Source: a virus. Taken from it: a stretch of DNA of 22,974 nucleotides. The position numbers and the translations under genes are program-made. Under the pieces are notes generated by a model that did no database searches, was not told the DNA's origin, and saw only the letters and a list, made by a program, of their open reading frames with translations. The DNA lies in IMG/VR virus record IMGVR_UViG_3300030117_003823, positions 1 to 22,974 of that record. One strand, 5' to 3'. Shown here piece by piece: positions 19,610 to 22,382 of this stretch (position 1 is its first letter; the number at the start of each line of letters is the position of its first letter).

Positions 19610-20148
19610 ATATATTTGTATTAGATAATGAACCAAAAGAAGCAGCTAGACAACATTGTGATAAACATGTTGTTAAAATGATTATTGAGTCTGCACAAAT
19701 GTTGTCCACTTCCCATCGTATACTTGATGGTACGTTAACTCGTAAGCCATCTAAGTCCGGTAAAACAATGGTTCAGTATTGGGAGATGGATAACCAATAT
19801 GATGAGAATCTATTATATAAAGCAGTACATATGAAACATCCTTGTACTCTTTGGACAATGGAATCATCAGAAAATTATCATTGGCATTGGGATTTATTCA
19901 ATGCGCTTTGTGACGAATACATTCATCGATATAAGCGAGTACACCGAACAGATGAATTACTTCGAGGTAGGTTATTAAGACCACCAGAAAATATCCCGCA
20001 GGGACCGATGACACCCTTCCGTCAAGCAATCTTCGAAGATTGTAAAGGTCCAGATCCCGTTAAAGCATATAGAAAATATTACCACGCTAAAACATTTAAA
20101 ATGGCTTGGACAAATCGCGAGGTTCCAGCGTGGTATTCATATAAATAG
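19606..20148 (+). CDS. Conserved phage protein with CDKHVVKM signature
   Basis: A 180-residue protein. Residues 18-33 read CDKHVVKMIIESAQML, followed by THR-type and KHPCTLW segments, a His/Trp cluster (NYHWHWDLF), and a C-terminal YRKYYHAKTFKMAW...PAWY. The CDKHVVKM...AQML motif is shared by a family found in many T4-like phages and resembles the core of pyrimidine-dimer-excision proteins (Pyr_excise) in which the nearby His are conserved. Whether it is a DNA repair enzyme cannot be decided from the sequence. It ends in a TATAAATAG that is also a late promoter motif. Confidence 0.6.
   Translation: MNIFVLDNEPKEAARQHCDKHVVKMIIESAQMLSTSHRILDGTLTRKPSKSGKTMVQYWEMDNQYDENLLYKAVHMKHPCTLWTMESSENYHWHWDLFNALCDEYIHRYKRVHRTDELLRGRLLRPPENIPQGPMTPFRQAIFEDCKGPDPVKAYRKYYHAKTFKMAWTNREVPAWYSYK
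20140..20147 (+). promoter_or_regulatory. T4-type late promoter (TATAAATA)
   Basis: A perfect TATAAATA that also encodes the last codons and stop of the gene before it. It ends 5 bases before the ATG at 20153. T4 geometry puts the transcript start on or next to that ATG. Confidence 0.55.
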
Positions 20149-20152
20149 TATT

Positions 20153-20353
20153 ATGAGCACAGCAGCATTTTACAGATATGAAAATAATTATTTAGCCAAT
20201 GCGGTTGAAATACATCACAGCGGAAAAACATATTATGTCAATAATCATGCTGACTACTCATATCCAATAGATGGATTTACGTACTATGCTTCAATTGAAG
20301 AAGCATGTACAGCAATTGGAATAAGTGTTCCAGCTGCAACAACAGAATCTTAA
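20153..20353 (+). CDS. Hypothetical small protein
   Basis: A 66-residue acidic-to-neutral protein, Tyr-rich (FYRYENNYL, KTYYVNNHADYSYP, FTYYASIEEA). No Shine-Dalgarno is visible; the start lies just after the late promoter motif. The alternation of aromatic and polar residues suggests a small beta-sheet domain. Not recognised. Its stop lies immediately before the glutamine riboswitch. Confidence 0.55.
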   Translation: MSTAAFYRYENNYLANAVEIHHSGKTYYVNNHADYSYPIDGFTYYASIEEACTAIGISVPAATTES

Positions 20354-20354
20354 C

Positions 20355-20405
20355 ACGTTCACCCGAAAGGGCGGAAGTACTCACATTGTGTGAGGAAGGA
20401 ACGCA
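20355..20405 (+). promoter_or_regulatory. Glutamine riboswitch (glnA class)
   Basis: The element fits the glnA/glutamine-I RNA consensus. P1 pairs CGUUC 20356-20360 with GAACG 20399-20403. P2 is CCC 20362-20364 with GGG 20369-20371 closing a GAAA tetraloop. P3 is CUCACA 20380-20385 with UGUGAG 20389-20394. The conserved joining strands CGGAAGUA (20372-20379) and GGAAGGAACGC (20394-20404) are both present. The family, with the related Downstream-peptide RNA, is known from cyanobacteria and marine phages and often precedes short peptides, exactly as here: the RBS and ATG follow at 20414-20426. Ligand specificity for L-glutamine is inferred from the family. I favour type I over Downstream-peptide because of the three-way junction. 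Confidence 0.88.
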
Positions 20406-20425
20406 CTGCTAATAGGAGAAAGCAA

Positions 20426-20593
20426 ATGGCAACTCTACAATACAGAGGGTCAGTTGTTGGAAACTCAGAAGCGGTGGTAAAACCTAGCATCGCTTCTTAC
20501 AGAGGTTCAACATACAACCCACAAGAAGTTGACTCAGCTCCAAAAGCTCACAAGTTCGTAATGAACTATCGTGGTGCTACTTTGGACGTGTAA
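20426..20593 (+). CDS. YRG-repeat small peptide (DUF4278-like) under riboswitch control
   Basis: A 55-residue peptide starting MATLQYRGSVVGNSEAV after a TAGGAG Shine-Dalgarno. An in-frame GTG at 20390 would start inside the riboswitch P3 stem and is rejected. Three YRG motifs occur (residues 6-8, 28-30, 48-50: YRGSVVG, YRGSTYNP, YRGATLDV). YRG-x-x-Y is the hallmark of small cyanobacterial DUF4278-type proteins. Its placement after a glutamine riboswitch parallels the GS-inactivating peptides that glnA RNAs control in cyanobacteria, but this peptide is not itself recognisably such an inhibitor. A role in nitrogen or glutamine sensing during infection is an inference. Confidence 0.8.
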   Translation: MATLQYRGSVVGNSEAVVKPSIASYRGSTYNPQEVDSAPKAHKFVMNYRGATLDV

Positions 20594-20612: not shown

Positions 20613-20652
20613 TTCCCTCAGAGGTAGTATTTTATAAATACCTTTGAGGGAA
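20613..20652 (+). promoter_or_regulatory. RBS-sequestering hairpin with a late promoter in its loop
   Basis: UUCCCUCAGAGGUA (20613-20626) pairs along all 14 positions with UACCUUUGAGGGAA (20639-20652), with one G-U pair. The 3' arm contains the Shine-Dalgarno GAGGGAA of the gene at 20655. A perfect TATAAATA (20633-20640) runs from the 12-base loop into the 3' arm; by T4 geometry transcription would start near 20646, making an mRNA with the free RBS but without the 5' arm. T4 genes e, soc and I-TevI are known to use this arrangement to block translation of early read-through RNA. On the - strand the same stem is followed by a T7 tract and could act as a terminator. Confidence 0.8.
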
Positions 20653-20654
20653 TT

Positions 20655-22382
20655 ATGGCAAAAAAGAAAAAGAAGGACAAGGCTAAAGAATTGTCCGTGT
20701 CAGAAGCACAAAAAGTAGTTGCTTATCTTGTACATAAAAAAGATAAAGAAGATGAGTTATTACGAGAAGCTGCTTATGTACTACTTCAAGAAACAAATCC
20801 AGAATTTGATTATGAAGTAGAACCATCTGATACAACAGATATTAAAGGAGTAGATCAAGCAGCATCAGCTGGTGCTAACGCGGCAACAGTTGCAGGTGCA
20901 GCGGCAGCTACTACAGCTGCGACTACCGCAACAACAGCTGGTATATCATCAATCGGAGCAGCTATTGCTCAATTACAATCACTAGGAACTGCAGGCGTTA
21001 TCGCAATGTCTTCAGCAGTTTATTTCCAAGGTAGTTCAGTTTACGATAACGTAGATGTAATGATAGATGAAGTTACACCTATGATTGAAGAACTTGTAAT
21101 TACTGGAACAATTACCCCTCCACCCGAATCATCATTTTATGGTCAAGAAATTCCAAAAACTACAAGCTTTATCGGAGTTAAAGTTGGAGAGGCTCGAGAA
21201 GAAGAGCCGGCTGAAGATTCCGATCAACCCCTAACGGAAGAAGGTACTACAGATGACACAACATCAGAGAGCGAAACATCAACTGAAGATACGGAACAAT
21301 CGGAAGACGAAAACAAAACTGAAAAGTCAGACGAGAAGCAAGCCGTAACGGAAGAAGATGAGGAATCTGATGAAGAGGAGTCTGAAGAAGAATCTGAAGA
21401 CTCTTCTGACACCGAAGAAGAAAAAGAAGAACCAAAAAAGAAGAAAGGTTTTTTAGGTTTATTCGGTGATGACGATGAAGAAGAGGAAGAGGAAGAAGAG
21501 CAGGAAGAGGAAGAAACTACTGAAGACGAAGCTCCTGTAGAGGAAGACGAACCTGCTGATGAACCCGAAGAAGAAACTGCTGAAGAAGAACCTAAAAAGA
21601 AAGGTGGATTCTTTAGTTTATTTGGAGGCGGAGACGATGAAGAAGAGGAAGCTAGTGAGGAAGAGGAAGAAGCTCCTGAAGTTGAAGAAGAGCCGACTGA
21701 AGAAGCACCGGCAGATGAGCCGACTGAGGAAGTGGTAGAAGAAGAACCCAAGGAGGAGCCAAAGAAAAGTTTTTTTTCTTTTTTTAAAATAGACGAAGAA
21801 GATAGTGAAGAAGAGCAAACAGAGGAGCCTGATGAGCCTGAAGAAATCATTGAAGTCGAAGAAGTCGAAGATGAACCAGCACCTGAACCCGAACCTGAAC
21901 CAGAGCCACAGCAAGAATCACGTGGATTGTTTAGCATGTTTACACAAGCAATCTCCCCTGATGAACCCGAAGAAGTTGACGAACCTGAATTGGATGAACC
22001 TGAGCTCTCGATAGTTGCTGATGACGGGTCAGTTCAAAACCCACTACCAAAAATAGAATTTTCAGATGAAGTAGTAGAAGCATCTGATAGTATAACTGAT
22101 GAACAACTAGAAGATGCTGGTATATCAAGAGATGACTTTGAAGTAGTACTTCAGGATATGGTAGATAATCCTGATGACTACATGATGGACATTGAAGAAG
22201 TAGATTCAGATATGTTTGAAGTTGAAGAAGTGGTAATGATAGATGAAACAATTTTTAACGAACAGATAGAAGAAGAAATAGAACAAGAAATAGAAGAAGA
22301 TGATACCATTGATTGGTCAACTATTCTTGGGCCAAACGCTCCTGGCTATGATAACGGAGATAGGGACGCAACACCAATATGA
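20655..22382 (+). CDS. Extremely acidic, disordered repeat protein with periodic aromatic motifs
   Basis: A 575-residue protein. The N-terminus is Lys-rich (AKKKKKDKAKEL), followed by a helical segment, an Ala/Thr-rich stretch (66-98) and a hydrophobic segment (about 96-124) that could cross or insert in a membrane. From about residue 180 to 450 it is dominated by Glu/Asp/Pro/Ser and surely disordered. Four short Lys- or Arg-led aromatic motifs, GFLGLFG (265-271), GFFSLFG (318-324), SFFSFFK (372-378) and GLFSMFT (424-430), recur every 52-54 residues. The C-terminus (460-575) is acidic but more ordered (SDEVVEASDSITDEQLEDAG). Expression is expected to be late (hairpin-gated). It could be a membrane-tethering or DNA-mimic-like protein; no family is recognised. 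Confidence 0.75.
   Translation: MAKKKKKDKAKELSVSEAQKVVAYLVHKKDKEDELLREAAYVLLQETNPEFDYEVEPSDTTDIKGVDQAASAGANAATVAGAAAATTAATTATTAGISSIGAAIAQLQSLGTAGVIAMSSAVYFQGSSVYDNVDVMIDEVTPMIEELVITGTITPPPESSFYGQEIPKTTSFIGVKVGEAREEEPAEDSDQPLTEEGTTDDTTSESETSTEDTEQSEDENKTEKSDEKQAVTEEDEESDEEESEEESEDSSDTEEEKEEPKKKKGFLGLFGDDDEEEEEEEEQEEEETTEDEAPVEEDEPADEPEEETAEEEPKKKGGFFSLFGGGDDEEEEASEEEEEAPEVEEEPTEEAPADEPTEEVVEEEPKEEPKKSFFSFFKIDEEDSEEEQTEEPDEPEEIIEVEEVEDEPAPEPEPEPEPQQESRGLFSMFTQAISPDEPEEVDEPELDEPELSIVADDGSVQNPLPKIEFSDEVVEASDSITDEQLEDAGISRDDFEVVLQDMVDNPDDYMMDIEEVDSDMFEVEEVVMIDETIFNEQIEEEIEQEIEEDDTIDWSTILGPNAPGYDNGDRDATPI
21447..21944 (+). repeat. Four aromatic motifs at about 53-residue intervals in an acidic region
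   Basis: The GF(L/F)(G/S)LFG-type motifs are encoded at 21447-21467, 21606-21626, 21768-21788 and 21924-21944. Each of the first three is preceded by two to four Lys and set in Glu/Asp-rich sequence. Regular spacing suggests unit duplication of about 160 bases, followed by heavy divergence of the acidic spacers. Confidence 0.75.

Follow-up and report, generated by a model that had tools for sequence, protein, structure and literature searches.

A type-1 glutamine riboswitch aptamer precedes a gene for a DUF4278-related three-YRG peptide in a marine T4-like phage

On binding glutamine, the type-1 and type-2 riboswitches for this amino acid turn expression on, and in cyanobacteria their aptamers lie mostly ahead of DUF4278 genes (PMC6316151, PMC6698751). 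The gifB riboswitch is required for the control of glutamine synthetase via the inhibitor IF17 (PMC6316151, PMC6698751). DUF4278 forms the N-terminal part of IF17, and inhibition by IF17 does not need this part (PMC6316151). In phages, glutamine riboswitches were described earlier from Melnitz, Mosig and Prochlorococcus phage AG-345-P14 (PMC9004378) as well as from T4-like cyanophages (PMC9602691, PMC9964418). For Melnitz, control of tmRNA was reported and a role in lysis timing proposed (PMC9004378). Hence, the riboswitch class, its occurrence in T4-like marine phages and its host pairing with DUF4278 are already known, and the statement of the initial annotation that the family is present in cyanobacteria and marine phages agrees with the literature (PMC6316151, PMC9004378, PMC9602691, PMC9964418). 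With Klahn et al. 2018 as a possible exception, no mention was found in the papers searched of a phage aptamer-DUF4278 pairing, of its late promoter or of the breadth of micro-proteins behind phage aptamers; the same holds for three features described below, namely the subgroup with NtcA boxes, the helix coupled or fused to YRG and the riboswitch-nested ORF.

The window, i.e. the whole 22,974-base virus record analysed here, encodes nrdA, nrdB, a T4-type RNase H and a SegE-like endonuclease, and belongs to a marine, T4-like virus. Over several window proteins the nearest named phages, with identities mostly of 38-53%, are Phage C48C1, for which no host is given, Melnitz of OM43, HTVC008M of SAR11 and cyanophages, and the large subunit of the ribonucleotide reductase (RNR) is closest to that of an Agrobacterium phage (65%). 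The features of the locus are collected in Table 1.

Table 1. Features of the riboswitch-peptide locus in the window, and nested-ORF loci of cyanophage type
Feature	Position	Strand	Evidence or remark
T4-type late promoter motif TATAAATA	20140-20147	+	motif scan
66-aa ORF between promoter and aptamer	20153-20353	+	ORF; stop codon abuts aptamer
Glutamine riboswitch aptamer, type 1 (glnA)	20354-20407	+	RF01739 covariance match
P1	20356-20360/20399-20403	+	
P2	20362-20364/20369-20371	+	
J2/3 CGGAAGUA	20372-20379	+	
P3	20380-20385/20389-20394	+	
J3/1 GAAG	20395-20398	+	
Shine-Dalgarno AGGAGA of peptide gene	20414-20419	+	sequence
55-aa three-YRG peptide, DUF4278-related	20426-20593	+	ORF, profile match
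14-bp hairpin 3' of peptide gene (20613-20626 with 20639-20652)	20613-20652	+	sequence
Late-promoter motif TATAAATA within hairpin loop/3' arm, ahead of 20655-22382 gene	20633-20640	+	motif scan
Nested-ORF locus L136	1253-1470		Synechococcus phage DSL-LC02
Nested-ORF locus L141	1253-1470		S-SRM01
Nested-ORF locus L486	651-870		P-SSM2
Nested-ORF locus L488			DSL-LC03
Nested-ORF loci L361, L389, L400, L404, L405, L416, L426, L436, L451, L454, L461			

The aptamer matches the RF01739 covariance model with 45.4 bits (gathering threshold 35), at E 3.8e-7 for the full length of the window; no other Rfam model matches the window at E<=1. Its three-way junction of P1, P2 and P3 with the strands CGGAAGUA and GAAGGAACG is present, and the initial annotation had rightly recognised all conserved elements of glnA RNAs. 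Of the two covariance models that it had brought into play, glnA was borne out by this score, and the Downstream-peptide or type-2 model (RF01704) failed to match the window at this E-value limit; as a positive control, the latter matched the loci L351-L353 and L355 at 65-68 bits. We aligned seven phage sequences, the window and six relatives, over 14 pairs. All pair cells (100%) are standard and four pairs, in P2 and P3, are compensatory; shuffled partners equalled the observed pairing in at most 1 of 500 trials, and slid partners never did. The letters of P1 are invariant across this set, and in the distant relative L130 a G/C swap (CGUUG/CAACG) preserves the pairing. Folding energy alone fails to reveal the window aptamer (z -1.06). 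Judged by model match and covariation, the element is a type-1 glutamine aptamer, and its family membership suggests that it would bind glutamine.

The 55-aa ORF starts after a gap of 18 nt from the aptamer end. Its product matches DUF4278 (PF14105) with 24.8 bits (E 2.9e-5), just missing the curated cut-off of 25.3, and has YRG motifs at residues 6-8, 25-27 and 48-50, in line with its first description as a DUF4278-like 55-residue peptide with three YRG motifs downstream of the RNA. Of 22 phage YRG peptides, 21 match DUF4278 at E<=1, the best of them at 1.5e-9, and the three YRG motifs are invariant in 13 phage and six cyanobacterial peptides. The gene differs from that of the 93% identical relative L122 by 13 nucleotides, distributed over the codon positions as 2/0/11. 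Since 11 of the 13 differences fall at third positions, the peptide is, by this comparison, under purifying selection. It ends five residues past the third YRG, and an IF7-like, glutamine synthetase-binding C-terminus is absent. AlphaFold2 predicted three small β-hairpins with RG at the turns (mean pLDDT 68); a PDB search with this model gave no match, and no solved structure is similar in sequence to an IF17 homologue. A direct tblastn search of named phages with the 55-aa sequence as query likewise returned no match.

When comparing the locus with the cyanobacterial gifB/DUF4278 type-1 unit, as described in PMC6316151 with reference to Klahn 2018 and to Ames and Breaker 2011, the aptamer class, the position directly before a DUF4278 gene and the short start-codon distance are shared. 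Whereas the host unit has an NtcA-controlled promoter, the window is from a phage and carries a T4-type late promoter motif. IF17, the gifB product, has an N-terminal DUF4278 with three YRG motifs and a glutamine riboswitch in common with the window; however, it continues into a C-terminal inhibitor part with an IF7-like tail, which the stand-alone 55-aa peptide lacks. The cyanobacterial locus L354 similarly combines a type-1 aptamer, three YRG motifs and an IF7-like tail. The marine picocyanobacterial type-2 unit (e.g. PMM1846; L351-L353, L355) resembles the window in its stand-alone three-YRG peptide of near-equal length and its leader glutamine aptamer, but that aptamer is of the RF01704 class and the window's of RF01739. 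Prochlorococcus-type loci have this arrangement, in which a type-2 riboswitch leads into a stand-alone YRG peptide gene, and a pattern derived from Prochlorococcus type-2 aptamers gave 20 scattered matches in viral contigs. The riboswitch class is also common to the window and to Melnitz, Mosig, AG-345-P14 and the T4-like cyanophages. However, the 51-aa ORF behind the Mosig aptamer (Mosig_00116) and the 32-aa ORF of Melnitz-1 belong to micro-protein families other than that of the window.

Ten relatives of the peptide were found, seven of which have a strict aptamer at about 19-22 nt, as in the window. L127 has an aptamer with a longer P3, confirmed by Rfam (54 bits), and a longer-P3 variant is visible in the sequences of L130 and L131, with diverged core positions in L130. 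Among 50 records with relatives of the riboswitch-adjacent gene, most of them fragments, the aptamer is present in the two nearest alone, and is thus no fixed companion of the neighbouring gene. Scanning IMG/VR with the exact core pattern gave at least 120 stretches; all survey counts are lower bounds and include related contigs at full weight. At least 119 phage aptamer units have a P1. Among the matches listed, a Shine-Dalgarno-led ORF lies within 80 nt in 107 of 119 units, and 105 of these 107 ORFs have at most 70 aa (median 38); an equally small ORF occurs at 8% of random positions. The distance to the start codon has quartiles of 24-29 nt in 98 phage units among the matches listed. The downstream peptides fall into several families, including YRG, a short basic 'WxxYCR / WCFxxxIKQH' type labelled helical from its sequence, and the types 'GTSGYxVKxG...NNW', 'KNITSxDPRLQ', 'NWQLxLIKQQKEKEQRK', 'MTKYQ...NPFYP' and 'MTYRPFxWK'. 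Pairing of a predicted glutamine sensor with a tiny protein is thus widespread in water-borne phages, the well-studied cyanophages included.

T4 late promoters have the motif TATAAATA, and the cyanophage version is NATAAATA (PMC2984593). In our survey, NTAAATA occurs 11-24 nt upstream of the aptamer in 64 of 106 phage units among the matches listed, against 1.3 expected. The window has nine TATAAATA motifs (4.1 expected), and the one upstream of the aptamer is about 207 nt away from it. In the relatives L122, L124, L125 and L128 the motif stands 18-20 nt upstream of the aptamer GUUC, which predicts a transcript start at the aptamer. The intervening 66-aa ORF of the window is absent from relatives that retain aptamer and peptide, and is an apparent insertion; it has no family match and no relative in viral contigs. 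A 14-bp hairpin similar to that behind the peptide gene is found in the same four relatives, and may mark a transcript end or a processing site. The gene beyond it (20655-22382) encodes a very acidic, low-complexity protein of 575 aa with repeated KKKGFLGLFGDDDEEEE-like blocks, for which a family search gave no convincing match.

A cyanophage subgroup of the units has a nitrogen-related signal in place of the late promoter motif. In cyanophages, Sullivan et al. took GTA-N8-TAC as the NtcA site (PMC3037559). This motif is seen in 15 of 106 units among the matches listed, against 1.7 expected, and always at -38/-39; four equally shaped control motifs stay near expectation. A targeted scan found 50 distinct loci with an NtcA box and a compact aptamer, with a spacer of 25 or 26 bases in 44 of them. 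Boxes of this type were noted in L002, L004, L006, L007, L027, L029, L035 and about 40 further loci, mostly 25-26 nt from GUUC. These loci are cyanophage-like, and box and aptamer together would sense nitrogen for a single micro-protein gene at both the transcriptional and the translational level. The same type of unit is found in the Synechococcus phages DSL-LC02, DSL-LC03, S-SRM01 and S-PM2 and the Prochlorococcus phages P-SSM2 and P-SSM5. The box is present in DSL-LC02, S-SRM01 and S-PM2, and no obvious one was seen in the P-SSM2 unit.

In about 40 of 69 distinct cyanophage YRG genes, a basic helical ORF of 27-33 aa starts one base before the YRG stop (4% by chance), as in L007, L136, L365, L385 and L487 (S-PM2p192/193), and in five loci (L035, L383, L405, L426, L462) YRG and helix are fused. 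This coupling or fusion, a Rosetta-stone link, indicates that the two work together, and shares with IF17 the layout of DUF4278 plus helical inhibitor seen in L354. Homology of the phage helical peptides to IF7 or to other DUF4278 C-termini found no support, profile-profile scores being no better than those of column-shuffled controls. Several cyanophage-type loci moreover have an ORF of 50-51 aa (MEALILTCLQAQLI.GRV...KNDLIWEIKQITPKECKIDAKAD) nested within the glutamine riboswitch (Table 1). It occupies the loop of a stem interpretable as the P2 of an additional aptamer unit in tandem. This stem covaries (UCUAU/AUAGA, UCUCAU/AUGGGA); the start codon of the nested ORF overlaps it, and the stop codon, which is TGA, or TAA in P-SSM2, shares bases with the GAAGG core. 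S-PM2 (L487) and L392 have the stem, UUCGCUAU/AUAGCGAA, without a nested ORF.

Building on the observed aptamer, peptide gene, adjacency, conservation and promoter motif, we propose that the locus is probably a phage version of the cyanobacterial unit of glutamine riboswitch and DUF4278 gene, delivering a glutamine-gated late peptide that may act on nitrogen assimilation. Late in infection, the TATAAATA promoter would yield an mRNA with the type-1 aptamer; plentiful glutamine would stabilise P1 and raise translation of the 55-aa YRG peptide, an ON direction as measured for host switches. Both glutamine binding and this direction are carried over from the riboswitch family. The peptide would then work through protein-protein contact on the nitrogen assimilation of the host, at glutamine synthetase or one of its regulators, a mode of action also assumed for the host relatives of the peptide. 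This supports the reading of the initial annotation, in which the phage would tie a small peptide to intracellular glutamine; the host partnership with DUF4278, the link to IF17 and the T4-type late promoter had been overlooked there. Regulation of the peptide gene by the aptamer in vivo is very probable, and a target in nitrogen assimilation is a tentative suggestion, somewhat short of an even chance. The proposal draws on the main partnership of host aptamers with DUF4278 genes and the need for the gifB riboswitch in glutamine synthetase regulation (PMC6316151). It is further supported by the 45.4-bit RF01739 match, the compensatory changes, the conserved DUF4278-related peptide, the late promoter motif (64 of 106 units among the matches listed) and the IF17-like coupling or fusion of YRG and helix in cyanophages. 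Against it count the folding of leaders, in which P1 released no sequestered Shine-Dalgarno (see below), the missing glutamine synthetase-inhibitory tail, phage helices with no detectable similarity to IF7 and the dispensability of DUF4278 in IF17. So do the nearest named phages, which infect OM43 or SAR11 or have no host given, together with the absence of DUF4278 from the 150 SAR11-order genomes searched.

Alternatively, glutamine could be a broad gauge of translation capacity or of how far infection has progressed, with the peptide aimed outside nitrogen assimilation, at lysis timing, the virion or host takeover. The late-promoter motif, the many non-homologous micro-proteins after phage aptamers, the aptamers in phages of heterotrophs (Mosig, Melnitz) and the lysis timing proposed for Melnitz (PMC9004378) all fit such a gauge. 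We regard it as rather unlikely, given that the window peptide is of the very DUF4278 family under host riboswitch control (PMC6316151) and that the same peptide families stand behind NtcA boxes in the cyanophage subgroup. A relic or passive 5' leader that folds and no longer switches the peptide gene is improbable: its core bases are fully conserved, the stems covary in relatives and the start-codon distance is tight (quartiles 24-29 nt, 98 phage units among the matches listed). The diverged core of L130 speaks for a relic, as does the modelling of phage leaders, which yielded no expression platform. When 101 phage leaders were folded with P1 free or forced, Shine-Dalgarno accessibility showed no consistent change, and Shine-Dalgarno pairing with the aptamer was lower than in controls with a shuffled linker; release of a sequestered Shine-Dalgarno by P1 is thus unsupported as the expression platform.

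Genes other than that of the 55-aa peptide are judged unlikely targets, because the gene that follows is served by a separate TATAAATA motif and sits past the 14-bp hairpin. Service to the 66-aa ORF transcript or the 575-aa gene in place of the peptide would agree with the intercistronic aptamer, whose 5' edge the 66-aa ORF reaches. Yet this ORF, itself without relatives, is missing where relatives keep aptamer and peptide, and such service is highly improbable.

More broadly, and as a possibility we hold with considerable reserve, phages may have made YRG and short basic helical peptides, used singly, coupled or fused as in IF17, into regulators of their own that act on host nitrogen assimilation and respond to nitrogen status. 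Glutamine riboswitches, some with a nested micro-ORF, would gate them, in cyanophages together with NtcA boxes, and the window would represent the stand-alone, late-expressed form. If the proposal holds, phages of abundant aquatic bacteria would sense glutamine late in infection and respond with a peptide of the host's glutamine synthetase-associated family. The same kinds of parts are present in the isolates S-PM2, P-SSM2, DSL-LC02, S-SRM01, Mosig and Melnitz, so the idea is testable in culture. The Melnitz-1 aptamer (L142, 45146-45194; also L269) shares sequence with the annotated tmRNA at the 3' end of the latter. A 32-aa ORF (MTLYQQWCYLKAQKEYRRRQKILMYFRIRLKG), which the annotation shown for Melnitz EXVC044M lacks, follows this aptamer directly. 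The position of this ORF suggests that the published riboswitch target, tmRNA, merits re-examination.

Outside phages, tandem type-1 aptamers were seen in marine Alphaproteobacteria (SAR116/SAR11/other: L151, L157, L171, L201, L202, L213, L217), in contrast to reviews that confine the type-1 class to cyanobacteria. They precede ORFs that, named by eye, resemble ammonium transporter and glutamine synthetase genes.
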